From assembly GCF_944393015.1 (NCBI RefSeq), contig NZ_CALXYQ010000018.1, forward strand, positions 1-53,177: 53,177 bases of DNA. Direction: 5' to 3'. The notes under the pieces are model-generated. The model made no database searches and had not been told where the DNA came from. It worked only from the letters and a program-made list of their open reading frames with translations. Each line of letters begins with the position of its first letter. Position 1 is the first letter of the stretch. Below, one piece after another: positions 5,208 to 42,934 of this stretch. The stretch is from an uncultured Brachyspira sp. Lineage in GTDB: Bacteria; Spirochaetota; Brachyspiria; Brachyspirales; Brachyspiraceae. The translations under genes and the position numbers were made by a program.

Positions 5208-5394
5208 TAAAAAATTGCTTATATAATTTAATGTATAAAATATTTTATATATTAATTAGTAATTAATGAAAAAATGCGATGCATTTAGAGTTTAATAAAC
5301 TTAAAAAAATTCAATATATTATAAAATTATATATCAAATAAAAACTCTATTCTTAATAGTAAGGAAGTTGTTTAATGAAAAGAAATAATTTTCA

Positions 5395-6162
5395 TTATTC
5401 ATAATTTTCTTCTTTTTTATTGCTTATGTTTTTTAATATACTTTTTATTTCAAAAGGTGATAAATCTTTATTTCTTTCTTTTAATAGTGCCACTATACCT
5501 GATATGTGAGGAGCAGCAAAACTATTTCCTATCATCATCATATATGAATTATTTACCCAAGGTACTCTTATATATATTCCTCTAGCTAAAAATTCTATAC
5601 GATTAGTATCTCTGAAATAGAACTCATATTTATCATCACTTGCTATTGCCTCAACAGATATTACAGGTGATAATATAGAAGGTATGCTTGGTATTGGATC
5701 ATTATTAGCTGCTGCAACTAATATTCTATTTTCATAATATGCTCTATCTAATAGATTATAAAAATAACTGCTATAAGTTTGATTAGTTGTTCCTAAACTT
5801 AAATTTATAACATCCATATCATTTTCTATAGCCCATTCTAATCCTTTAAGAAATACATCTACTTTTCCTGATAACTTATTGCCTAATACTTGTATACTAT
5901 AAAGCTCAGCATCTTTTGCTATAGAATGTATTATACCTGCACAAGCAGTACCATGTCCATACTGATCAAAACCTTTATAATCTTTTAATACAACTTTATT
6001 GTTTTCATATTCTATAACAACTCCTCCTTTTATTACATCACTATCTTTGAATACATCATGTGAGGCTTCTATACCGCTGTCTATTATTCCTACTTTAACT
6101 CCTTTTCCTGTTAAAGATTTTAGGAATTCATCTTTATCCATATTAAAAATATTGGAACTCAT
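5395..6162 (-). CDS. Compact cytoplasmic subtilisin-like serine protease (S8)
   Basis: Subtilase with the complete Asp/His/Ser triad: Asp28 in VGIIDSGIEASH, His70 in YGHGTACAGI, and Ser214 in GNSFAAPHISG. The oxyanion-hole Asn is near residue 153 (AAANNDP). At 255 residues it is little more than the catalytic core. It has no signal peptide or recognisable propeptide and should act in the cytoplasm, like intracellular subtilisins or protein-maturation proteases. Its ATG has an AAGGAA SD and lies 3 nt after the stop of the upstream GAF-protein gene, so the two are probably co-transcribed and translationally coupled. The substrate is unknown; the GAF partner may be its regulator or target. Confidence 0.88.
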   Translation of the reverse strand: MSSNIFNMDKDEFLKSLTGKGVKVGIIDSGIEASHDVFKDSDVIKGGVVIEYENNKVVLKDYKGFDQYGHGTACAGIIHSIAKDAELYSIQVLGNKLSGKVDVFLKGLEWAIENDMDVINLSLGTTNQTYSSYFYNLLDRAYYENRILVAAANNDPIPSIPSILSPVISVEAIASDDKYEFYFRDTNRIEFLARGIYIRVPWVNNSYMMMIGNSFAAPHISGIVALLKERNKDLSPFEIKSILKNISNKKEENYE

Positions 6163-6165
6163 AAA

Positions 6166-6927
6166 TCATTTCCTTAATAATTTTTTCTCTAAATGGGATA
6201 GATAATTGCTTAAAAATAGTTTGCAGAAATTTAATTCTTTTTCATCTATGTCGCCTATTTTATTTAATATTTCAGCTATTTTTAAATTTTCTTTTAATAA
6301 TGGATTATTAGTATATGATGATAAATCTTGTTTGATTTCTTCTTTTTTATTATCTTCTAAATTTTTAATAGCAGATACAAAGATTTCTCTTATATTTCTA
6401 TCTGTATAATTATCTTCAATTACAATAGAAGCTATTTTAGCGAATGAGTATAAATGATGCATATCCAGTTGTGAGAAATGAGTATCATCTTTTTTATTTA
6501 TAACTTCTAAAACTCCAATAACATTGTCTTTTATTTTTATTGGAACTATTGCTATATCATCTATTTGTATATGTATGGTGTCTTCTGTGTCATGCAAAGC
6601 GGCACTTACAGATCTATACATTTCTTTATTTTTAGATACATCAGCTATATTCAAAGCTTGTCCTGATATAAATACATTTCCTGTTATACCTTTACCTATA
6701 GGTACTTTGAAATTTTCAACTTTTTCATTGTTTAGATTTTTATATGCTTTTAATTCTAGATATTCATTGCTATCATCTAATAATAGTAAATGTCCGGCTT
6801 CTGAATCTGTAATAGAAACAGCTGTCTCTATTATTTGATTGAAACATTCTTCTTCCTGCTTTGAAGAGGTAAGTAAAAGAGCAAAATCCATTTGCTTAAT
6901 CAAAGAAAAAAAATCTGACTTTTCCAT
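6166..6927 (-). CDS. GAF-domain protein, partner of the downstream subtilase
   Basis: A 253-residue cytoplasmic protein with one GAF domain at about residues 25-165 (GHLLLLDDSNEYLELKAYK; VPIGKGITGNVF; IAIVPIKIKDNVIGVLEVIN). GAF domains bind small molecules such as cyclic nucleotides or sense redox state. The C-terminal ~90 residues are helical and charged, with no recognised output domain. I place the start at 6927, where AAGG precedes MEKSDFF. A longer frame opens at 6984, but its first codons run through a strong hairpin and add an implausible hydrophobic leader. It is the first gene of the GAF-protease pair; ligand-dependent control of the protease is inference. Confidence 0.8.
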   Translation of the reverse strand: MEKSDFFSLIKQMDFALLLTSSKQEEECFNQIIETAVSITDSEAGHLLLLDDSNEYLELKAYKNLNNEKVENFKVPIGKGITGNVFISGQALNIADVSKNKEMYRSVSAALHDTEDTIHIQIDDIAIVPIKIKDNVIGVLEVINKKDDTHFSQLDMHHLYSFAKIASIVIEDNYTDRNIREIFVSAIKNLEDNKKEEIKQDLSSYTNNPLLKENLKIAEILNKIGDIDEKELNFCKLFLSNYLSHLEKKLLRK

Positions 6928-6958
6928 TTTATTATACCTTTTTATTAAAATACAAATC

Positions 6959-6988
6959 AAATATGCCCATAAAATTATGAGCATATTT
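6959..6988. repeat. 30-nt hairpin before the GAF gene
   Basis: AAATATGC (6959-6966) pairs with GCATATTT (6981-6988), and the inner CATAA/TTATG pairs after one mismatch. It sits about 31 nt upstream of the chosen GAF start. It may be a terminator for long read-through from the TIR gene, or a 5' UTR element of the GAF mRNA. Confidence 0.55.
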
Positions 6989-7484
6989 GAAATAAAAAAT
7001 ATGATTGATTTTCCTAGTACTATTTTTTATAGTATTTCATTATGTATATTTCAAAAGTCATTATATCACTATATTTAAAGAATTAAAACCATTAATAGTT
7101 CCGATTTTATATGTTATATATGCTATAACTTTGAGATTAATCTTTTATATATTTACATCTTTTTATTATAGTATATTTTATTGTGTCCATTATTTTTCTT
7201 TTGTAATTTTTTATATACAACCTTTTTTATATAAATATAACTGTTTACTCCTTTTATGATAATGATTTATTTATTTTTTATTTTTTTTATTATTAGCAAT
7301 ATTAAACTTGAGCATTGCATTTAATACACATATAATCATATTGTTATAATATATTTTGTATTTAATAAATTTTTAATAATATAATGGATATAAATTATTA
7401 ATTATCTTACATAAATAAATACGTAGTTTTTAAAGAAAAAGTGTTTTTTATGTATTGATTTTTAATTATATATTATAATAATTA
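6989..7484. other. Gene-free AT-rich spacer with 15-nt word shared with the TIR island
   Basis: About 500 nt with no credible gene; the open frames are low-complexity hydrophobic shadows. ATAAATAAATACGTA at 7411-7425 recurs exactly at 16813-16827. The two copies bracket the stretch from the SLOG/TrkA gene to the last TIR gene. The promoter of the GAF gene must lie here but no good match was found. Confidence 0.5.
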
Positions 7485-10400
7485 TCACTTTGTAATTAAA
7501 ATATTATTTTTATCATAAAAGTTTGTATAAGAAGTTCCGTTTGCATCATAATCTACTGTGTATTTAGCATATCCGAATCTGCTTGTAATAAGATTTCCAT
7601 CTAAATCATAAAAAACGCATTGAGTTATTCTGTTGTTTGAATCATATTCTCTATGAGATCTGGCATATTTGTCAACGCTGTCTATTATTAGATTATTATT
7701 TGTATCATAATGTCTTTCATTAACTAAATTACCGAAATTGTCATAATCAAATTCTACTTTATAAAATCTATTAGCTAAAAAAGTTGGATTATTATTAGTA
7801 TCATAAAATTCTCTGCTTATAATATTAAAACCTTTATCATCATATTTATTTATACGTTTATAATATCCGAAACTGTTGAGCATATTTTGATTATTTGAAT
7901 CATAATATGTAAGTTCATCTTCATTTGTAAATGGATTTCTGTATTTATATATTAAATATGCACATCCATATTGAATGTTTGTATTGATAACGAGTTCATT
8001 ATTAATGCCGGTAAAAATAGAAATTTTCTCTCCATTATTATTGCCTACATAACTGCTATGGTATCCGTCTACTAATACAGGATTGTTATTAACATCATAA
8101 TAAGATTCTTTTCGGAAGTTATTGCATTTTATTTCTTTGTTCTTGATTATATCTTTTATTTTTTCTAAAGGTATATCCTCGTATGTGATAGTGGATATAT
8201 TTTTTGCAATGTTTATAGGTTTTTCGTCTGTTCCTAAATATGTTATTTTGCTTCTTTTAGAATTATTATATTCGTATTTTAAACCAGCACATTTACCTTC
8301 ATCAAATACCCAATACTGAAATTTTCCGTTTGCCATATATAATTTATCATTTTCATCATAAAAAAGTATTTTAATTACATTTCCTTTTTCATCATAATCT
8401 CTTGTTAATCTGTGAAAACCATTAAACCATTTTTTTGAATTAATATAAAATGCTTTATTTTCATTATTGTCATAATATTTTTCTTCTGTAACTAGTCCTT
8501 GATTATTATATGTGTATTCGCTTATGGCATATCCGCTATTTAAATTTTTATAATTATTATTTTCATCTAAATAAATATTTTTTATTATATTGCCTTTCCT
8601 ATCATAATGTATAACATGAGAAGCATAACTGTCATATCCTAAATATTCATCACTATATATAAAAGCATTAATTAATTTATCTTTGGTATCATAATATGAT
8701 ATATTAGTTATTCTATTATAATTATCATACATTTTAATAGATTTATGATAATTTAATTCATTTAATATTTTATTTGTATTAATTCCATAATATGATATTG
8801 ATTTTTGATTAAAATTATTATCATATTCAGTTTTTATTATAGAGTAGCCTGAATTTATAGATGTATTTTTATCATTAATATCATAGTACATAATTTCTAT
8901 AATATTATCATTATTATCATATTTAATATTATAACTAGATGCTCCATTAGTATAATACGCTTTTCTATTACTTATATCATAATAAGATACTTTTATATTA
9001 TTGCCGAAATTATCATACTGAAAATTTCTTTTACAATAAGAAGCCCTAATATATTCATCTTCATTATTTAAATAATTTTCATATATTACATTTCCATATT
9101 TATCTAATTGATATGAGATAGATGAATATAATTTACTTAATGGAATAACTCTATTAGTTGTATTATCAAAATAAGACAGTTTTATTAAATTGCCATTTTT
9201 GTCATATTCTTTTTCTACATAAGAATATCCATAATCTAAAGAAATATTATATATAAGATTATTTTCTTTGTCTAAAAATTCTTCTTTTATTACATTGTAT
9301 AAATGATCATAGGTAAATCTAATTTTAAATATTCCGCTCCTATTAGCTTCATTTTTCATATCTATATTTATTCCATATCTTACTATATTCATACCATTAT
9401 TATCTACTTCATAACCTCTGCCGTAAAATCCTTCTTTATCTGATATAGGTGTATTCCAAGCATCTCTATAATAAAGTTCATTAGTAACGTATCCATTATC
9501 ATTATAAGAAACTTCATACCTTACTATTTCATTACCTCCAGATATAAAAGGAAGATTAAATTCATTTTGAAGTTCTATTATCTTTAAATCCGCACTATAC
9601 TCTCTAATCATAACTATTTTATTATTATGGTCTTTGCATACTATTCTCTTTACTCCGCCTCTAGTATCTATTTCAGGCAGCCATACACTTATATTAAAAT
9701 TATTTTCATCATCTCTAAGCCTGCCGTAACTGTTGACTCTTTTTACACTTTTTAAAATTCTTCTCTGTTCTTCAAATATGTATGTTACAGATCGTTTTGA
9801 ATATTGTGATTTACTGAGTTTTCCTACGCCTTTAGGTATTCCATATTGATATACAAAAGTATTGTAATAAGTAGTTTTTACTCTGTTATAGTCCCAAGTG
9901 AATAATAGGGCAGACATTAAAACTGCCGCTAATAAAGAGGCTATTAATAATTTATTTCTTAATTTTCTTTTCTCTCTCATTTTTTCTCTTTGTCTTAAAT
10001 CATCAAAATTGCAGGCTAATATACAAGATAATATTTTTAATAATCCTATTTGTTTGGTTTCTTTTTCTTTTTGATCATTTCTCTTTCGAACATCAGCGGC
10101 TAGAGGTTCTATCTTTTTAATAATTCCGTTTTCTATAGTATATGTTAATTCTTTATTAAAAGATTCATAAGGTTCGCCGTCTATTAATAAACCAATTATT
10201 CTATCGAAACGTCCAAGCTCTTTAAATATTTTTATTTCACGTTCAACCCAAACAGATTCAGGAGTATTTTTAGAACATATTACTACTAGATATTTAGAAT
10301 GTATCAATGCTTCTTCTATGCTTTTATTTAAATCAGAACTGCTTGGCAGCTCTTCTTCATCTCTGAATACTCTGCCTATTCTTGTAGGAAAGCCTTTTTT

Positions 10401-10529
10401 AACAAGCTCTTTAGGTACTCTCCAAGTTTCAAGAGATTCCAAAAGCCATTTAGCCCATTTCTTATCTTCTTCTAAATGTCTGTAGCTTATAAATACATCA
10501 TAATTATATATAACTTCTTTATCTGCCAT
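7485..10529 (-). CDS. TIR-domain membrane receptor with YD-like repeats, paralogue A
   Basis: A 1014-residue protein. The TIR domain covers about residues 8-135 (YDVFISYRHLEEDKKW; ICSKNTPESVWVEREIK). The Glu in SVWVERE is at the place of the catalytic NADase Glu of enzymatic TIRs. A very basic stretch (REKMREKRKLRNK) precedes one TM at about 193-212, so by the positive-inside rule the TIR is cytoplasmic and the ~800 C-terminal residues are outside. That part is many ~37-residue repeats with YDxxGNxI and YYDxN cores, resembling YD/RHS repeats without an RHS toxin core. Residues 1 to about 360 are almost identical to the gene at 10697. It has its own promoter but no clear SD. Ligand and NADase activity are unproven. 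Confidence 0.85.
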   Translation of the reverse strand: MADKEVIYNYDVFISYRHLEEDKKWAKWLLESLETWRVPKELVKKGFPTRIGRVFRDEEELPSSSDLNKSIEEALIHSKYLVVICSKNTPESVWVEREIKIFKELGRFDRIIGLLIDGEPYESFNKELTYTIENGIIKKIEPLAADVRKRNDQKEKETKQIGLLKILSCILACNFDDLRQREKMREKRKLRNKLLIASLLAAVLMSALLFTWDYNRVKTTYYNTFVYQYGIPKGVGKLSKSQYSKRSVTYIFEEQRRILKSVKRVNSYGRLRDDENNFNISVWLPEIDTRGGVKRIVCKDHNNKIVMIREYSADLKIIELQNEFNLPFISGGNEIVRYEVSYNDNGYVTNELYYRDAWNTPISDKEGFYGRGYEVDNNGMNIVRYGINIDMKNEANRSGIFKIRFTYDHLYNVIKEEFLDKENNLIYNISLDYGYSYVEKEYDKNGNLIKLSYFDNTTNRVIPLSKLYSSISYQLDKYGNVIYENYLNNEDEYIRASYCKRNFQYDNFGNNIKVSYYDISNRKAYYTNGASSYNIKYDNNDNIIEIMYYDINDKNTSINSGYSIIKTEYDNNFNQKSISYYGINTNKILNELNYHKSIKMYDNYNRITNISYYDTKDKLINAFIYSDEYLGYDSYASHVIHYDRKGNIIKNIYLDENNNYKNLNSGYAISEYTYNNQGLVTEEKYYDNNENKAFYINSKKWFNGFHRLTRDYDEKGNVIKILFYDENDKLYMANGKFQYWVFDEGKCAGLKYEYNNSKRSKITYLGTDEKPINIAKNISTITYEDIPLEKIKDIIKNKEIKCNNFRKESYYDVNNNPVLVDGYHSSYVGNNNGEKISIFTGINNELVINTNIQYGCAYLIYKYRNPFTNEDELTYYDSNNQNMLNSFGYYKRINKYDDKGFNIISREFYDTNNNPTFLANRFYKVEFDYDNFGNLVNERHYDTNNNLIIDSVDKYARSHREYDSNNRITQCVFYDLDGNLITSRFGYAKYTVDYDANGTSYTNFYDKNNILITK

Positions 10530-10583
10530 AATATTATATACTTTGAGATTTTAATAATTTAAAAGTTTTAATATACATGGCAG

Positions 10584-10611
10584 AGTATATCATAATTAAA
10601 AAAATTATCAA
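10584..10611 (-). promoter_or_regulatory. Promoter for TIR paralogue A
   Basis: Minus-strand TTGATA (10611-10606), 16-nt spacer, TATACT (10589-10584), 54 nt before the start codon. With the terminator at 10631 this makes paralogue A a separate transcription unit from the operon upstream. Confidence 0.55.
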
Positions 10612-10630
10612 TGTATATAAATAATAACAT

Positions 10631-10669
10631 AAAAAACTATTTACTGTATAATTAATTAAATAGTTTTTT
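10631..10669. terminator. Terminator between the two TIR genes
   Basis: Perfect 13-bp arms (AAAAAACTATTTA at 10631-10643 and its complement at 10657-10669) with a 13-nt loop and a T-rich end in the minus direction, 28 nt past the stop of paralogue B. Confidence 0.75.
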
Positions 10670-10696
10670 ATATTATTATTTATCTTATTAGTATAA

Positions 10697-13570
10697 TTAT
10701 TTTTTATCAGATATTAATTCATTGTTTATATCATAATATTTATACATACGATTATAATTATTATCAAAAAATTCTATACGTTTAAAACATTCAAAAATTT
10801 TAGATATAACAGGTTCATCATTAATTCCATAGTTTTCAAGAGTGTTGGAAAGATAATTTTTTATATATACAATTTTAAAAACGCCGTCATTATTCAGTAC
10901 AGGATTATTATTTATTCCAAAATTTTTAGAAACAGATATTGATATATTATTAGTATAAGAATATTCAGATATATTATAGGCATATTTGTATATGTTATTT
11001 ATTATTAATTTATTATTTGTATCACAGTAAATACGTATCGAATATTTATTGTTATTTCCGTAATATTCAGAATGATAATTTTCTTTTTTTAGAATTATAG
11101 GATTATTGTTTTTATCATAAAAAGAATTTTTTATGATATTCTTTATTTTTATATTTGCGTTTTTTATTAAATTAGTAATATATCCATAATCTAAATATTC
11201 ATATTTTATAATAGATAAATTATCATAAGCATTTATAGGTTCATCATTTATTCCATAATATGATTGTTTTATTAGCATAGAATTGGAATATTCATATTTT
11301 ATTTTAGAGGCATTTACTAATATATATTCAAATTCTCCAATTGAGTCGGATATATCTAAAGTTAATAACATTGGTTTATCATATATATCATAGAATGATT
11401 TTTCTATAATATTTCCTTTATCATCATACTCATATTTTGTTTTATGGGTGCTTACATAATTGTCAATTGTAAAAACATATTCTTTAGAATAAACAGGTTC
11501 TTCATTAATACCGTAATAACTTTCTTCTATTTTATATCCTTTTTCATCATAATTAATTTTTTTTACAGAATAATTTCTTTCATTTAGAATGAGATCATTC
11601 TTATCATCATAATAACTTTCTTCTATAATATTCCCTTTTTTATCATATTTTATTCTGCAATCTCCTCCTTTTCCCCAATAGCCGTTATTTAATATTAGTT
11701 TATTATTAGTATCAAAATATTTTTTATTGATTATTCTATTGTAATTATCATATTTATATTCTATCAAATGATATTCTTCTATTTGAGATACTGGTTCATC
11801 ATTTATATTGTAGTAGCTTTCTCTAATTAAATTATAATTATCATTATACTCTTTTTTTATAATAGCATACTGATTATATGTTGCTGTTAAATTATTGTTT
11901 TGATTATAATAACTTTCTTGAATTATATTGTCATTATTATCATATTTTATTTTATATTGATGATATTTTAATTCTGTTATGTATTTATTAGTATTATTAT
12001 CATAGAAACTTCCTTCTATAACATTACCTTTATCATCATATATCATATTATGCATGCAATATGATATTGATCTGTATACTTGCGGCTGTAAAAATAAATT
12101 ATTATTTTCATCATAGCTTGTTATATTAGTAATATTTCCTCTATTATCAATATTGTAAACTAAGGAGGCACTTCCAAAATAATTTGATTTTATACTTTGA
12201 TTGTTTTCATCAAAGAAAGATTTTTTTATTAAGTTGCCGTTTTTATCATAACTTTTTTCTATATATGAATAACCATAATTATTTCCTATATATATTAAAT
12301 TATTATTTTCATCAATAAATTCTTCTTTTATTAAATTGTAATTATTATCATAGTTAAATTGAAGTTTGTATATTCCTTCTTTATTTGCTTCTATATCACC
12401 ATTATAATTTATACCGTATTCAGAAGTAACAACTCCATTATTATCTACTTCATATATTTTGCCATAGAATCCGTCTTCATCTGATATAGGTGTATTCCAA
12501 GCATCTCTATAGTAAAGTTCATTAGTAACGTATCCATTATCATTATAAGAAACTTCATATCTTACTATTTCATTACCTCCGGATATAAAAGGAAGATTGA
12601 ATTCATTTTGAAGTTCTATAATTTTTAAATCTGCACTGTACTCTCTAATCATAACTATTTTATTATTATGGTCTTTGCATACTATTCTCTTTACTCCGCC
12701 TCTAGTATCTATTTCAGGCAGCCATACACTTATATTAAAATTATTTTCATCATCTCTAAGCCTGCCGTAACTGTTGACTCTTTTTACACTTTTTAAAATT
12801 CTTCTCTGTTCTTCAAATATGTATGTTACAGATCGTTTTAAATATTGTGATTTACTGAGTTTTCCTACGCCTTTAGGTATTCCATACTGATATACAAAAG
12901 TATTGTAATAAGTAGTTTTTACTCTATTATAGTCCCAAGTGAATAGTAGGGCAGAGATTAATACTATGAAAAGAGAAGAAGCTATTAATAATTTATTCCT
13001 TAATTTTCTTTTTTCTCTTGATTTTTCTCTTTGTCTTAAATCATCAAAATTGCAGGCTAATATACAAGATAATATTTTTAATAATGCTATTTGTTTAGTT
13101 TCTTTTTCTTTTTGATCATTTCTCTTTCGAACATCAGCGGCTAGAGGTTCTATCTTTTTAATAATTCCATTTTCTTCTGTATATGTTAATTCTTTATTAA
13201 AAGATTCATAAGGCTCACCGTCTATTAATAAACCAATTATTCTATCAAAACGTCCAAGCTCTTTGAATATTTTTATTTCACGTTCAACCCAAACAGATTC
13301 AGGAGTATTTTTAGAACATATTACTACTAGATATTTGGAATGTATCAATGCTTCTTCTATGCTTTTATTTAAATCAGAACTGCTTGGAAGCTCTTCTTCA
13401 TCTCTGAATACTCTGCCTATTCTTGTAGGAAAGCCTTTTTTAACAAGCTCTTTAGGTACTCTCCAAGTTTCAAGAGATTCCAAAAGCCATTTAGCCCATT
13501 TCTTATCTTCTTCTAAATGTCTGTAGCTTATAAATACATCATAATTATATATAACTTCTTTATCTGTCAT
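10697..13570 (-). CDS. TIR-domain membrane receptor with YD-like repeats, paralogue B
   Basis: A 957-residue sister of the gene at 7485. TIR is at about 8-135, with the same presumed catalytic Glu in SVWVERE. A basic stretch precedes one TM at about 193-212 (SSLFIVLISALLFTW), followed by ~740 predicted extracytoplasmic residues of Asn/Tyr-rich repeats such as YDDKGNVIEGSFYD. About eight substitutions separate the paralogues over the first ~250 residues, and half of these lie in the TM. After about residue 360 (NTPISD) they share only the repeat consensus. The SD is GGGAG. It lies 31 nt after the sigma-factor gene, so it is probably the last gene of that operon. The nearly identical N-terminus points to recent duplication or gene conversion. 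Confidence 0.85.
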   Translation of the reverse strand: MTDKEVIYNYDVFISYRHLEEDKKWAKWLLESLETWRVPKELVKKGFPTRIGRVFRDEEELPSSSDLNKSIEEALIHSKYLVVICSKNTPESVWVEREIKIFKELGRFDRIIGLLIDGEPYESFNKELTYTEENGIIKKIEPLAADVRKRNDQKEKETKQIALLKILSCILACNFDDLRQREKSREKRKLRNKLLIASSLFIVLISALLFTWDYNRVKTTYYNTFVYQYGIPKGVGKLSKSQYLKRSVTYIFEEQRRILKSVKRVNSYGRLRDDENNFNISVWLPEIDTRGGVKRIVCKDHNNKIVMIREYSADLKIIELQNEFNLPFISGGNEIVRYEVSYNDNGYVTNELYYRDAWNTPISDEDGFYGKIYEVDNNGVVTSEYGINYNGDIEANKEGIYKLQFNYDNNYNLIKEEFIDENNNLIYIGNNYGYSYIEKSYDKNGNLIKKSFFDENNQSIKSNYFGSASLVYNIDNRGNITNITSYDENNNLFLQPQVYRSISYCMHNMIYDDKGNVIEGSFYDNNTNKYITELKYHQYKIKYDNNDNIIQESYYNQNNNLTATYNQYAIIKKEYNDNYNLIRESYYNINDEPVSQIEEYHLIEYKYDNYNRIINKKYFDTNNKLILNNGYWGKGGDCRIKYDKKGNIIEESYYDDKNDLILNERNYSVKKINYDEKGYKIEESYYGINEEPVYSKEYVFTIDNYVSTHKTKYEYDDKGNIIEKSFYDIYDKPMLLTLDISDSIGEFEYILVNASKIKYEYSNSMLIKQSYYGINDEPINAYDNLSIIKYEYLDYGYITNLIKNANIKIKNIIKNSFYDKNNNPIILKKENYHSEYYGNNNKYSIRIYCDTNNKLIINNIYKYAYNISEYSYTNNISISVSKNFGINNNPVLNNDGVFKIVYIKNYLSNTLENYGINDEPVISKIFECFKRIEFFDNNYNRMYKYYDINNELISDKK

Positions 13571-13601
13571 ATTTCTGCTCCCTAATATGATATAAGAAAT
13601 T

Positions 13602-14246
13602 TTATATATTTTTATGGTTTAATTTAGTTATACAATCTTTTATTTTGTTGTTATAAGCTAATTTGATTTTTTCTAAAGTATGATCAGATATATTATATTT
13701 AGATTTTATATCTTTTATTTTTATATCTTTGTTTAAAAATGAAAATACATATTCTTTGTATATAATGAAACTATCATCTATATATTCATGAAGTCTATTT
13801 TTTACTTCTATTATATTAGATAGTTTTTCATTACACATATTACATTTACTGCATACAACATCCATACTTTGCTTTATTATGGCTTCAATAAATAAGAATA
13901 ATCCTTCTTTATATTCTTTATATAAATCATTTATTTCATTATCGGATATAGATAAATTTATGAGTTCATCATTAAATTCTTGTAATTCATATTTTCTATT
14001 TATTTTATTATTCTTTTTTCTAAAGAAATCATTTACTCTTGAATTAATCATTATGAATATGTAACCATCTATTTTATCATATCCATTTTTTTCAAACCCG
14101 TTTCCTATTTTATTTAATAACTCTACATATATTTCCTGCATAATATCATTAGCATCTTCATAATTACCAACTTTAGAGTATATTTTGTATATGTATGTTT
14201 TGTGATTTCTATCAATAGAATCAATTAAATCTAATATTTCCCACAT
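13602..14246 (-). CDS. ECF-like sigma-70 factor with CxxCxxC linker
   Basis: A 214-residue sigma-70-family protein. Region 2 spans about residues 20-95 (YEDANDIMQEIYVELL; YIFIMINSRVNDFFRKK), with the usual DAxDxxQExF-like core. A region-4-like helix-turn-helix is at about 175-210 (IKDIKSKYNISDHTLEKIK). The linker between them has Cys132, Cys135 and Cys138 (VCSKCNMCNEK), a CxxCxxC cluster that could bind zinc or sense redox state. No anti-sigma factor is adjacent. It sits 2 nt after the SLOG/TrkA/RyR gene and 31 nt before TIR paralogue B, so it is embedded in that operon. It may direct transcription of the island itself; the target promoter is unknown. Confidence 0.78.
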   Translation of the reverse strand: MWEILDLIDSIDRNHKTYIYKIYSKVGNYEDANDIMQEIYVELLNKIGNGFEKNGYDKIDGYIFIMINSRVNDFFRKKNNKINRKYELQEFNDELINLSISDNEINDLYKEYKEGLFLFIEAIIKQSMDVVCSKCNMCNEKLSNIIEVKNRLHEYIDDSFIIYKEYVFSFLNKDIKIKDIKSKYNISDHTLEKIKLAYNNKIKDCITKLNHKNI

Positions 14247-14248
14247 AA

Positions 14249-16735
14249 TTAATAATTTTTACCTATTTTATATTTTATAAATGAATTTAATTTTTTATTA
14301 TTAAAAAGTATATCCCGCATCTTATCCAGTAAATCATAGTTTACAATAAAATCAGTAGATAAACTTCTATTTGTAGAATTGTCATCTAATATGTAATATT
14401 TAGTTACAAATTCTTTATCATTATCATTTAAATCTTCTATAATCATTTGATATTCTTCATTGTTAATTGCTATAGGTATATCTATTAATCCCATAGAATC
14501 TTTATATAATTCTTCATTGGATAATTCATCAAATGGTACTAGTAAATTATGCAGTCTCATATGAGTTTTTATAAAATTCAAAGTTTCTTTTGTGTAATTA
14601 GAACTTATGCTGTCAAATCCAGATAATATTTTAGATACATACCATCTTTTATGTTCCAATCTTCTAAGTAAATCTATATCCCTTATTTCTTTTAATGGAG
14701 TGTGTTTTCTCTTGTCATTAAAATCTAATATTGATAATCCTATATAATCTAATTTGATATTGAGGAATCTTGCTGCATATCTGTTATCATTTTTTTCTCC
14801 TTCAGATAAACTATTCCATATTAGATTATTGTTTGCTGTCGGCATTTTACAATATTCAGAATGTATTTTTTTAGCTATTATATCTAAATCATCATATTGC
14901 AAAGAATAGTCTATAGAAGATAGATAATTCATAGAGGCAAATATATCTATTCCTACTTTATAGTATTTATTGTATAATTCAGGATTTGCTTCTAATATAT
15001 TTGTTTTTGAATCTAAATATACAAATATTTTTGGCTCATCTTTTAATGATAGATTCTTGAATAAAATTTGTCTAGTTTCTATTGCCCAATTCAATGAATT
15101 TTCTTCATTTTCTGCATAAATTAAACAAGAGGATAATTTTTCTAGTAGTTTAGCTATGTTTTCAGGTATTTCATTATTGATAAATGAAGGATAGTCTAAA
15201 AAATGCAAATTAGCTACTCTGCTTAATTCAGGAAGTTTATTTATTAATACATTATTATAAAATTCCTGATTTTTATCTACAAATATTAAATTAATATTAT
15301 TATCTTTACCCACTACAAGAAGTATTAATTCTCTTATTATTTCTATAACATTATTATTTACGCCAAAAATAAGTATTATAGGTTCTTTTCCTTCATTAAT
15401 GTGTATGTTTCTTATAACAGAATATTTAGCTATATTATCAATAAATAATCGTATAGCATTTTTCTTGAAAGAAGAAAATTTTATATAAACAGGGTCTCCG
15501 TCATAAGATATAGGCTTAATTTTTTCATAATTTTTATATTTATTATTGTCTTCTATATCTACAGTTAGTTCTATGTTATGATTAATTTTATATGTTCTAA
15601 TTATTTTAGAAGCTATACTCATAGTTTCTATATTTTTATCATCATTTTCTGAAATACAAAATATTTCATTGCATTTTAATATTCCTGCATTAAATAATGT
15701 AGAAGGCTGAGTATAATCACCTTTTAATTTTAATACTTTTTTATTGAAAATGTCTTTACTGTCTATTTCATCTTCATCGCATATAAGCACTATTTTTTTA
15801 TCTTTGGATATTCCATTAAGTACGCATAATGATTTAGTATTACAGCCACATATTATAGTGTGATTTTTAAAAAATATAGAAATTATAGTTCTTGTTATTA
15901 AATCTGAGAACAAGTTTTTAAGCATTTGAAACAATGCTCCGGCTAATGTTATAGGTGCTAAAAAACGTATGATATTAAGCAGCGGAGGTAATTGCTCCAT
16001 ATCAAAACTTGCTTCTAATTGGAATATTTGTAAAGTTTTATATAATGCAGTTAATATGCTGATATCTTCATTATACTCAGTTAAACAAAAATCTTTCCAA
16101 GCAATTATTCCAAGTATTGATATAAAAATAAAAGATATAACCCAAGCAACAGTCATACTAAAATAAGATGCTTTTTTATATATTTTTTCACCTATTATTT
16201 TTGAACATATATCGCTATTAATATTATTTAGTAAATTTTTTTTTATATCATCTAAATTTTTATTTACATCTATATTTAATATAAATGGGTTTTTATAGTA
16301 ATTTTCAAATAATAACGTTGGTATATTATAATTTTTTTTATAATTAGTATTTATATAATTTTCTATATTTATATTACTGTCTGTTATAAATATAGATATA
16401 TCTGTTTTATGAGATATCAATGATATTAATTCTTTATTTGTGATATTTTCATCAATAACAAAACTTGAATTAGCTTTTTTTAAAATAAAGTCTATATCTT
16501 TATTATCTTTTTCTATTTTGTTTTGAGTAATAATATCTATAACTATTTGATATTCTATAGCTAATTTAGATATAGCTATTTCTGTATCGGTATATAATGT
16601 GGTGTATAATTTTACCAATCTTTTAGGGTAAATTCTTCTTAAATGATTTATTATATAGGCAAAAGACTCTAATATTTTTTCTTTATCTACATCATTTGAT
16701 AGATCTGATATATATATAGTTATAGGGTGATTCAT
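14249..16735 (-). CDS. SLOG-like / 2-TM / TrkA-N / RyR-domain membrane protein
   Basis: An 828-residue protein whose parts suggest a ligand-gated channel-like sensor. Residues 1 to about 170 look like a divergent Rossmann-type (SLOG-like) domain; this call is weak. TM1 is at about 192-213 and TM2 at about 252-276, with a possible pore stretch between. A TrkA-N/RCK-type Rossmann domain starts near residue 292 (HTIICGCNTKSLCVL; LKGDYTQPSTLFNAG), and a second related region follows from about 415. A RyR domain lies at about 689-748 (LEHKRWYVSKILSGF; LLVPFDELSNEELYKDS). I chose ATG 16735 (AAGG SD) over an in-frame TTG at 16747. The sigma gene follows after 2 nt. RyR/TrkA-N proteins occur in prokaryotic nucleotide-signalling loci; ligand and ion are unknown. 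Confidence 0.72.
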   Translation of the reverse strand: MNHPITIYISDLSNDVDKEKILESFAYIINHLRRIYPKRLVKLYTTLYTDTEIAISKLAIEYQIVIDIITQNKIEKDNKDIDFILKKANSSFVIDENITNKELISLISHKTDISIFITDSNINIENYINTNYKKNYNIPTLLFENYYKNPFILNIDVNKNLDDIKKNLLNNINSDICSKIIGEKIYKKASYFSMTVAWVISFIFISILGIIAWKDFCLTEYNEDISILTALYKTLQIFQLEASFDMEQLPPLLNIIRFLAPITLAGALFQMLKNLFSDLITRTIISIFFKNHTIICGCNTKSLCVLNGISKDKKIVLICDEDEIDSKDIFNKKVLKLKGDYTQPSTLFNAGILKCNEIFCISENDDKNIETMSIASKIIRTYKINHNIELTVDIEDNNKYKNYEKIKPISYDGDPVYIKFSSFKKNAIRLFIDNIAKYSVIRNIHINEGKEPIILIFGVNNNVIEIIRELILLVVGKDNNINLIFVDKNQEFYNNVLINKLPELSRVANLHFLDYPSFINNEIPENIAKLLEKLSSCLIYAENEENSLNWAIETRQILFKNLSLKDEPKIFVYLDSKTNILEANPELYNKYYKVGIDIFASMNYLSSIDYSLQYDDLDIIAKKIHSEYCKMPTANNNLIWNSLSEGEKNDNRYAARFLNIKLDYIGLSILDFNDKRKHTPLKEIRDIDLLRRLEHKRWYVSKILSGFDSISSNYTKETLNFIKTHMRLHNLLVPFDELSNEELYKDSMGLIDIPIAINNEEYQMIIEDLNDNDKEFVTKYYILDDNSTNRSLSTDFIVNYDLLDKMRDILFNNKKLNSFIKYKIGKNY

Positions 16736-16812
16736 AATAACCTTCAATTAAGTGATTTTATAATATAATAACTCATATTTTAATATTAATTTATCTAAAA
16801 AATATTGCATAT

Positions 16813-16827
16813 ATAAATAAATACGTA
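16813..16827. repeat. 15-nt word repeated at the other end of the island
   Basis: ATAAATAAATACGTA, identical to 7411-7425. A third TACGTA lies at 17450-17455 upstream of the first island gene. Possible regulator site or chance in AT-rich DNA; TACGTA is the most specific part. Confidence 0.35.
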
Positions 16828-16836
16828 ATTTTGTTA

Positions 16837-17430
16837 TTATGTAGATTTTTTTATAATAAAAATTCTGTTTTTTTCATAAAAAATATCTTCTTGATTATAA
16901 TTTGAGAATAATGTATCTTTGAACATACATAATCTTTTTTTCTCTTTAGTTTTTAGGTTTATAATCCATAGTTCTAAAGAAATGTTTTCTATACATTCAA
17001 TATTTCCTGTAACATATATATTTGAATTATCAAAAGTTAAATATACAGGTAAATCTGAATCTATATAATTTAGTTTTACTGTTTTTTCATTCGGTAAATT
17101 TTTACTATATCCAACAACCTTATTTTCTTCATCTTCTTCTGCTTCATCGTATAATATAAAATTGTCATTAGGTATTGAAAAACATATAATATCATTTATT
17201 TCTAAATATTTTTCTAGATAGTCATGAGTAATATTTTTAATAATAGAATATTTTTCATCTAATAATTGATGATCTATATTGGATTCATTTTTCTTATTTG
17301 AAGAATCTAATATTATTTTATCAAACATTGTTAAATTTTTTTTGTTAATATTTTTTTGTATAAAAATATCTGTAAAATATTCCATTATTAATTCCTCTAT
17401 GTTTTTTTCATTTTCTTCATTTTCTAACAT
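16837..17430 (-). CDS. Unrecognised acidic protein, first gene of TIR island
   Basis: A 197-residue cytoplasmic protein that I do not recognise. The N-terminal third is helical and very acidic (MLENEENEKNIEELIMEYF). The C-terminal half looks like beta-strands (VYLTFDNSNIYVTGNIE; ISLELWIINLKTKEKKRL), perhaps a small beta-sandwich. There is no signal peptide, TM segment or Cys motif. The ATG at 17430 has a GGAAG SD; an in-frame TTG at 17442 is less likely. It precedes the SLOG/TrkA/RyR gene by about 100 nt on the same strand. As the first gene of the island it could be an adaptor or regulator, but that is position-based inference. Confidence 0.65.
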   Translation of the reverse strand: MLENEENEKNIEELIMEYFTDIFIQKNINKKNLTMFDKIILDSSNKKNESNIDHQLLDEKYSIIKNITHDYLEKYLEINDIICFSIPNDNFILYDEAEEDEENKVVGYSKNLPNEKTVKLNYIDSDLPVYLTFDNSNIYVTGNIECIENISLELWIINLKTKEKKRLCMFKDTLFSNYNQEDIFYEKNRIFIIKKST

Positions 17431-17487
17431 AACATCTTCCAATATATAATACGTAAATTATAAAAATAACCTTATTTTTTATTATAA

Positions 17488-17515
17488 ATTATCGGTATAT
17501 TTTTATACCTACCAA
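17488..17515 (-). promoter_or_regulatory. Candidate island promoter with palindromic spacer
   Basis: Minus strand: TTGGTA (17515-17510), then exactly 16 nt forming an inverted repeat (GGTATA-AAAA-TATACC, 17509-17494), then GATAAT (17493-17488), 58 nt before the start at 17430. A palindrome filling the spacer would be well placed for a repressor or activator. The rest of the 17431-17740 gap is featureless A/T. Confidence 0.45.
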
Positions 17516-17740
17516 TAATAATTATTTTTTATATTGTTCATTTTATTTTTTCTAGTATATTTATACTGTTATATATTTTTTTAATATTGAAGGATTATTA
17601 TATTATAATGCATATATTGATAAATAATATTATCAGGACTAATACTAATTTTATTAATTATAAAATTAAAATTATATTGTTTAAAAAATTATAATTATTA
17701 ATAAAAATAACTATATTATTTATTTTTATGATTTTTGCTA

Positions 17741-41992: not shown

Positions 41993-42934
41993 ATGAGTTT
42001 GGAAAATAAGTTAAAATCTGCAATATTAGGACTTGCCATAGGAGATGCTTTGGGTGTTCCTTATGAATTTATATCAAGAGATATTATAAAAAATAATCCT
42101 TGTATAGATATGATAGGATACGGTACTCATAATAAAAAAGCTGGTACTTGGTCTGATGATACTAGTTTAACATTATGTTTACTTAATAATTTGAATAATA
42201 AAAATATAAATTATAATGATATTATGAATAGTTTTGCATTATGGTATGACAAAGGTCATTATACTGCAGACGGACATACATTTGATATTGGAATAACTAC
42301 AAGCGATGCTATAAATAATTATAAAAGCGGAAAAAATCCTATAAAATGCGGATTATCTAATGAATACAGTAATGGAAACGGCTCTTTGATGAGGATACTT
42401 CCTATTGCATTTTATATAAAAAAATATTTTGATAGTCAATTATTTGAAAATAGTGAAGTGATAAATATAATATACAATCTTTCTTCATTAACTCATTCTC
42501 ATAAAAGAAGTTTGATAGCTTGTGTAATATATACTGCAATAGCATTGAATTTAATAAATGATATGAATATTGAAGAAGCTATTAATAAAGCATTAAAAGA
42601 TTCTTCTGATTATTATGAAAATGAAAAAGAAATTAATAATTACAAAAGAATATTCGATTCTGATTTTAAAAAACTTCAAGAAACAAAAATAGAAAGCAGC
42701 GGATATGTTGTTCATACCTTGGAGGCTTCTATATGGATATTATTAAATACTTCAAATTATAAAGATGCTGTATTAAAAGCCGTTAATTTTGGAGATGATA
42801 CTGATACTACTGCGGCAGTTACTGGAGGACTTGCAGGTTTATACTATGGTATGGATAATATTCCAAGTAAGTGGATTGATACTTTAATAAATAAAGAATT
42901 GATAATAAATATTTGCTGTAATTTTTTTAAATAA
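41993..42934 (+). CDS. ADP-ribosylglycohydrolase family protein
   Basis: A 313-residue all-helical enzyme of the DraG/ARH family, which removes ADP-ribose from proteins or nucleic acids using two Mg ions. Metal-binding motifs are present: GTWSDDTSLTLC (Ser54-Asp55-Asp56) near the N-terminus and FGDDTDTTAAVTGGLAGLYYG near residue 265. IGDALGVPYEF at the start is also a signature. The target is unknown. A Pr6Pr-like membrane gene follows after 25 nt and a broken hicBA pair after that. In a genome with TIR proteins, an ADP-ribose hydrolase could bear on NAD-derived signals, but the TIR island is 25 kb away, so this is speculation. Confidence 0.9.
   Translation: MSLENKLKSAILGLAIGDALGVPYEFISRDIIKNNPCIDMIGYGTHNKKAGTWSDDTSLTLCLLNNLNNKNINYNDIMNSFALWYDKGHYTADGHTFDIGITTSDAINNYKSGKNPIKCGLSNEYSNGNGSLMRILPIAFYIKKYFDSQLFENSEVINIIYNLSSLTHSHKRSLIACVIYTAIALNLINDMNIEEAINKALKDSSDYYENEKEINNYKRIFDSDFKKLQETKIESSGYVVHTLEASIWILLNTSNYKDAVLKAVNFGDDTDTTAAVTGGLAGLYYGMDNIPSKWIDTLINKELIINICCNFFK

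Follow-up and report, generated by a model that had tools for sequence, protein, structure and literature searches.

A mobile Brachyspira island pairing membrane-bound TIR proteins with a predicted RyR-domain RCK channel

Gene content of the island

The DNA analysed here (the window) is a stretch of 53,177 nucleotides (nt) from the AT-rich genome of an uncultured Brachyspira sp., and all coordinates are window positions unless a locus is named. It contains an island at 5262..17655, whose left edge at about 5208-5262 and right edge at about 17655 were placed by empty sites in sister genomes. The island encodes two membrane-bound TIR-domain proteins and a predicted channel with RCK and RyR domains, together with a sigma factor, an acidic protein, a GAF-domain protein, and a subtilase. 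The linkage of such TIR and channel genes is well supported in two phyla, as described below.

All of the island genes lie on the minus strand. The acidic protein is encoded at 16837..17442 (likely ATG start at 17430), the channel at 14249..16747 (832 residues; likely ATG start at 16735), the ECF-like (extracytoplasmic function) sigma factor at 13602..14246, TIR B at 10697..13570, and TIR A at 7485..10529. A first-pass annotation of the letters had described these genes as a five-gene unit. An open reading frame (ORF) check found the row in place, and the reported gaps of 2 nt between the channel and sigma genes and 31 nt between the sigma and TIR B genes are exact. The genes are real; the unit was drawn too small, since the subtilase gene (5395..6162; Peptidase_S8 in Pfam, E 3e-33) and the GAF gene (6166..6984; GAF_2, E 4e-13) belong to the same island. 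Searches for tRNA and Rfam features found none. About 24 kb from the island, an ORF at 41993-42934 looks ADP-ribosylglycohydrolase-like by eye, and is possibly unrelated.

The channel, the TIR receptors, and the accessory proteins

The channel protein carries a TrkA_N/RCK domain (residues 298-387; 15587..15856), as first read from the letters and now matched by Pfam (E 2e-7). The AlphaFold model has a mean predicted local distance difference test score (pLDDT) of 64, with most of the core at 70-90. It shows a long first transmembrane helix (TM1), a pore helix, and TM2 (residues 178-279; 15911..16216), then two Rossmann domains, and an RyR region that is helical. The second Rossmann/RCK-type domain (residues 457-605; 14933..15379) was delimited from the model and its structural matches. 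The best structural matches of the channel are the gating rings of CASTOR/DMI1 (Z 17), MthK (Z 16), and GsuK (Z 15), and they are strongest for the RCK part. The model thus supports the predicted fold of an RCK-gated, CASTOR/DMI1/GsuK-like channel. The N-terminal α/β region (residues 1-175; 16223..16747) is missing from most relatives and could be assigned to no family. The SLOG domain once proposed there was not recovered: Pfam gave no match, hhalign gave none with shallow alignments, and the model of this region is of low confidence.

The RyR region (residues 640-765; 14453..14830) was also part of the first-pass annotation, and this assignment stands on the evidence of relatives and of profile comparisons; the window protein itself has no direct match in Pfam. 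Distant collinear homologues of the channel match RyR at E 1e-4 to 9e-3, and Pfam found the domain in five of 18 aligned relatives (E up to 0.01; best 4e-11). The profile of the channel RyR region matches a canonical RyR profile (hhalign 96%, E 9e-9) and that of standalone bacterial RyR proteins, and the region also matches RyR domains of known structure (RyR1 chimera, E 1.6e-6; bacterial domain, E 0.003). The standalone bacterial proteins belong to the family of 3nrt and the animal RyR repeats. The VIA matches for the whole channel include no RyR domains, which is no proof of their absence. Among 16 diverse channels, 14 residues are invariant, including the motif E-H-x-R-W-N-x-E, an H beyond it, and a D placed 17 residues after that H. 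By alignment, H699, W702, H733, and D750 of the window channel correspond to H75, W78, H100, and D117 of the phage protein RyDEP, with spacings of 3 and 17; these four RyDEP residues contact the ligand (PMC13232231). Of the four corresponding channel residues, three, together with the second His, do not vary among the 16 channels.

Both TIR proteins have the TIR domain, single transmembrane helix, and repeats that had been read in them. They match TIR_2 (E 6e-12 and 5e-12) and, above cut-off, ThsB_TIR (E 3e-8 and 2e-7). The TIR domain occupies residues 12-120 in each (10170..10496 in TIR A; 13211..13537 in TIR B). It is followed by a basic stretch, one hydrophobic helix at about residues 193-215, and 600-700 residues of YD-like repeats. 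Because the basic stretch precedes the helix, the TIR domain would lie inside and the repeats outside the inner membrane. A catalytic-type glutamate (E98 in WVEREI) stands in a column that is invariant in nine aligned channel-linked TIR partners, and the TIR domains probably cleave NAD as putative NADases.

The two receptors are almost alike at one end and dissimilar at the other. TIR A and TIR B share 96-99% identity over the first 300 residues (dS, synonymous divergence, 0.04-0.24) and 29-47% after residue 400 (dS 0.8-1.4), so that the repeat region of TIR A (7488..9512) is divergent from that of TIR B. Likewise, TIR B and its orthologue in genome G015 share 86-96% identity, falling to 42-59% past residue 500. 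A constant signalling part joined to fast-changing outer repeats would suit a receptor for variable cues. The two genes look as though their 5' part had been homogenised and their repeats swapped, and recombination or gene conversion is likely. The AlphaFold model of TIR B is poor as a whole (pLDDT 39.5) and usable only for about residues 540-690; it shows beta-hairpins in the repeats, and Foldseek led to RHS/teneurin proteins with low TM-scores. The repeats are therefore named by type only (YD/RHS-like).

The sigma factor matches Sigma70_r2 (E 2e-5), just above cut-off. To this extent the earlier call of a sigma factor is supported; region 4 gave no match, and ECF models were below cut-off. 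The sigma factor occurs only in this genus's version of the system. In several genomes, the region upstream of the acidic gene contains TTTACGTA, which was considered as a promoter motif dependent on the sigma factor, and a near-copy lies upstream of the channel gene; its count in the window equals chance, and it was rejected. Sites resembling AATTTACGTAT were also seen upstream of the acidic gene (17449-17459), where several genomes conserve them, and of the channel gene (16821-16831); in the window they are not above chance. The subtilase has the triad motifs D28, H70, and S214 and no obvious export signal; on these grounds, one guess is that it proteolytically controls another island protein. 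The acidic protein has orthologues in the island genomes and no Pfam, PADLOC, or PHROG match.

Mobility of the island and linkage of its TIR and channel genes

Distribution was assessed in 26 genomes of the genus. Orthologous loci have the gene order acidic, channel, sigma, TIR(s), GAF, and subtilase. Strong orthologues of the sigma, subtilase, and GAF genes each occur in exactly the same six genomes (p 4e-6 per pair). The acidic gene was found in five of these six; in the sixth, a run of N covers that position. Four of the 26 have the channel gene at full length, with an internal stop in one of them (G015), and the TIR family is restricted to the same four. In G007 the site is empty: DNA matching window position 5208 directly abuts DNA matching 17655. 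In G009 and G025, only a flavin-reductase-like gene of 178 amino acids lies between 5261 and about 17740. These empty sites show that the seven genes, from subtilase to acidic protein, were gained or lost together. The island is mobile, and its genes move as one unit.

The six island genomes represent about four lineages on the PheT tree, a patchy distribution; in other lineages, the channel part lies next to PheS/PheT. G008 and G016 keep the gene set, but divided over two loci. An apparent TIR-chemoreceptor fusion in G016 (L022) was rejected as an artefact, the frame crossing a 3,975-base run of N. Between the window and G015, island genes are 90-94% identical at the DNA level (TIR lower) and most of the island-flanking DNA is 84-87% identical; this greater likeness of the island genes hints at transfer. 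Viral carriage was also considered and rejected: viral contigs contain no relative of the channel or TIR B, and phage records no channel match. The ratio of non-synonymous to synonymous divergence (dN/dS) is mostly 0.04-0.2 for the channel, sigma, GAF, and subtilase genes, indicating purifying selection. G002 and G021 keep the acidic, sigma, GAF, and subtilase genes; TIR is absent, and the channel is a remnant (L024:7906-9643 and L025), with its two ends in G002 and a short piece in G021. Since these four genes are kept without TIR, they may have a role of their own. The state of the two genomes may be either decay or a trimmed system.

Outside the genus, a Spirochaetales metagenome-assembled genome (L043) has a channel gene followed after 31 nt by a gene for a TIR-transmembrane-propeller protein. 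A collection scan yielded 24 further channel loci, mainly from Bacteroidales. TIR genes are present in 12 of these 24, which are not independent because seven come from one group of near relatives; the TIR genes are always close to the channel gene, often with a gene for a 100-residue RyR protein between. Because that scan was by similarity, 149 Bacteroidales genomes were sampled in addition. The RyR-region channel was found in 15 of them and strong TIR-subclass matches in 10, all within the 15 (p 2.8e-12); when all TIR matches are counted, 13 of 39 TIR genomes also carry the channel (p 3e-7). Both p-values are uncorrected for shared ancestry, and, as the TIR profile was seeded with channel-linked TIRs, the association holds for the subclass and not for all TIRs.

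Three of the 15 unselected channel loci (L159, L160, and L172) have an adjacent TIR gene, two more (L168 and L166) have one farther off in the same cluster, and eight contain a standalone RyR gene. In Bacteroidales, the standalone RyR genes next to the channels belong to the 3nrt type (E 1e-43). The cluster L168:3739-11546 (Bacteroidales) is a more complete version of the network: it comprises the RyR channel, an overlapping SLOG-like gene, a TIR gene, and a gene for a STAND-type protein in which RyR occurs twice. On Sinorhizobium plasmids (L046:4360-8942), a DUF4062-STAND-TPR frame, in which the annotated start is internal, overlaps the TrkA-RyR gene by 4 nt. In another spirochaete locus (L044:7065-10826), the RyR channel adjoins a TPR-S protein that has a cyclase domain and a SLOG-like stretch; this neighbour suggests that the channel may in some cases be partnered by a different nucleotide-messenger enzyme. 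In Allochromatium (L057:5428-6879), an RyR-like match has an unexpected context, being flanked by ABC-transporter-type genes.

Co-occurrence elsewhere, which the first-pass annotation had named as one test of its proposal, was found for the TIR and channel genes, which lie side by side in a second spirochaete and in a number of Bacteroidales lineages. The suggested coupling of TIR signalling to the RyR/TrkA membrane protein is strongly supported as a functional linkage by the same distribution within the genus, by adjacency, and by co-occurrence in Bacteroidales. Given this co-occurrence and the empty site, the TIR-channel pairing is not due to chance.

Proposed mechanism and comparison with known systems

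These results suggest that the island might be a TIR-based signalling system, most likely serving conflict or immunity, with a ligand-gated ion channel as its effector in a Thoeris-like circuit. We put the probability of this reading at roughly one half. The YD/RHS-like repeats of the membrane-anchored TIR proteins might sense a cue outside the inner membrane. The clustered TIR domains, in which the glutamate is conserved, would then cut NAD and release an ADP-ribose-type messenger, for example an isomer of cyclic ADP-ribose (cADPR). The conserved ligand residues and the co-occurrence of the genes suggest that this messenger would bind the C-terminal RyR domain of the two-TM/RCK channel. To judge from the fold, the RCK ring might open the pore, and the ion flux might signal to the cell or kill it. 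The GAF, subtilase, sigma, and acidic proteins would be regulatory additions of this genus's version. The anti-phage role, the ligand, and the ion are what we infer here. STAND, DUF4062, SLOG-like, and standalone RyR genes adjoin relatives of the channel, in support of this reading.

A broader proposal is more tentative, and we hold it to be somewhat less probable. There might be a widespread bacterial circuit, serving immunity, in which TIR proteins make an ADP-ribose messenger that acts directly on an RyR channel to open it; it would be a prokaryotic counterpart of animal cADPR and ryanodine-receptor signalling. This genus would have added the sigma factor, GAF protein, and protease, and the receptors would diversify their outer repeats on a constant TIR domain.

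Several observations weigh against the signalling circuit. At about half of the channel loci elsewhere, no TIR, STAND, or SLOG gene is found in the neighbourhood, and the TIR profile behind the Bacteroidales association was itself built from channel-linked TIRs. G002 and G021 retain the rest of the island without TIR or an intact channel. The window channel protein has no direct Pfam RyR (PF02026) match above cut-off. No TVGYG-type filter was found in the pore region of the aligned proteins, which bears on the ion and even on conduction. PADLOC models do not cover the gene set of the island; only generic TIR and subtilase models match.

A link to K+ and osmotic control is common among RCK channels, which the channel fold matches. 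It is conceivable, although unlikely, that the island is a regulatory one, concerned with envelope or stress sensing and not with immunity. The TIR proteins would sense a surface or host cue, the channel would adjust ion balance, and the sigma, GAF, and subtilase genes would form a protease-controlled transcription switch. The retention of these three genes and the acidic gene in G002 and G021 is in keeping with such a switch; however, the patchy island-like distribution, the fast-changing receptor repeats, and the STAND, DUF4062, and standalone RyR neighbours of relatives fit conflict systems better.

The RyR domain of the channel could also act not as a gate but as an enzyme, breaking down the TIR product and so terminating the signal, as H699 and D750 correspond to the RyDEP catalytic pair H75/D117. 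This appears improbable: among eight phage relatives tested, seven show no cleavage although six bind (PMC13232231), fusion to pore and RCK domains suggests ligand gating, and buffering or clearing would be a better role for the standalone RyR genes that adjoin channels in Bacteroidales. Several channels without a TIR gene nearby and many Bacteroidales TIRs without a channel would suit two separate systems sharing islands, the TIR killing by NAD loss alone and the channel having an unrelated ligand, but this is the least probable explanation in view of the identical TIR and channel distribution within the genus, the TIR-subclass association across Bacteroidales genomes, and the repeated adjacency in divergent lineages.

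If the proposed circuit is true, an ion-channel effector class would be added to TIR signalling, and phage RyR sponges and hydrolases would gain a likely further host target. The direct action of cADPR-type molecules on channel RyR domains, an old question, would become testable in bacteria, and the TIR-channel pair in gut Bacteroidales provides workable models. The pairing of TIR with an RyR-TrkA channel, the seven-gene island, and the empty site were not found described in the literature searched, and part of the pairing may have been predicted before. The survey of Burroughs et al. 2015 on nucleotide-centred conflict systems is reported to assign such roles to TIR, SLOG, and further domains linked to nucleotides, and may list prokaryotic RyR-TrkA proteins.

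The island resembles Thoeris in combining a ThsB_TIR/TIR_2-type TIR with a separate effector whose domain family is known to bind cADPR isomers. The Thoeris effector is ThsA (SIR2-SLOG or Macro). In the island, an RCK channel with an RyR domain would take its place, and Pfam and PADLOC found neither SIR2 nor SLOG nor Macro in the island proteins. Moreover, the TIR of the island is a membrane receptor with outer repeats, and sigma, GAF, subtilase, and acidic genes are added. As ThsA is lacking, the island was not filed as Thoeris. With phage RyDEP (PF02026; PMC13232231), the channel shares the RyR ligand residues and their spacings, and RyR domains of the RyDEP type bind 2'/3'cADPR (PMC13232231). 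RyDEP itself is a small protein with which phages counter Thoeris, as a hydrolase or sponge, whereas in the island the domain forms part of a host channel encoded beside a TIR gene. The RCK channels CASTOR/DMI1, GsuK, MthK, and Slo share the order predicted here, in which TM1, a pore helix, and TM2 precede two Rossmann domains, and GsuK structures hold ADP or NAD. The island channel differs from them in its pore, which has no TVGYG-type filter, and in its additional C-terminal RyR and N-terminal domains. The animal ryanodine receptors and bacterial 3nrt share the RyR repeat domain with the channel; in the case of the animal receptors, only this repeat domain is common, and the pore and architecture are unrelated.

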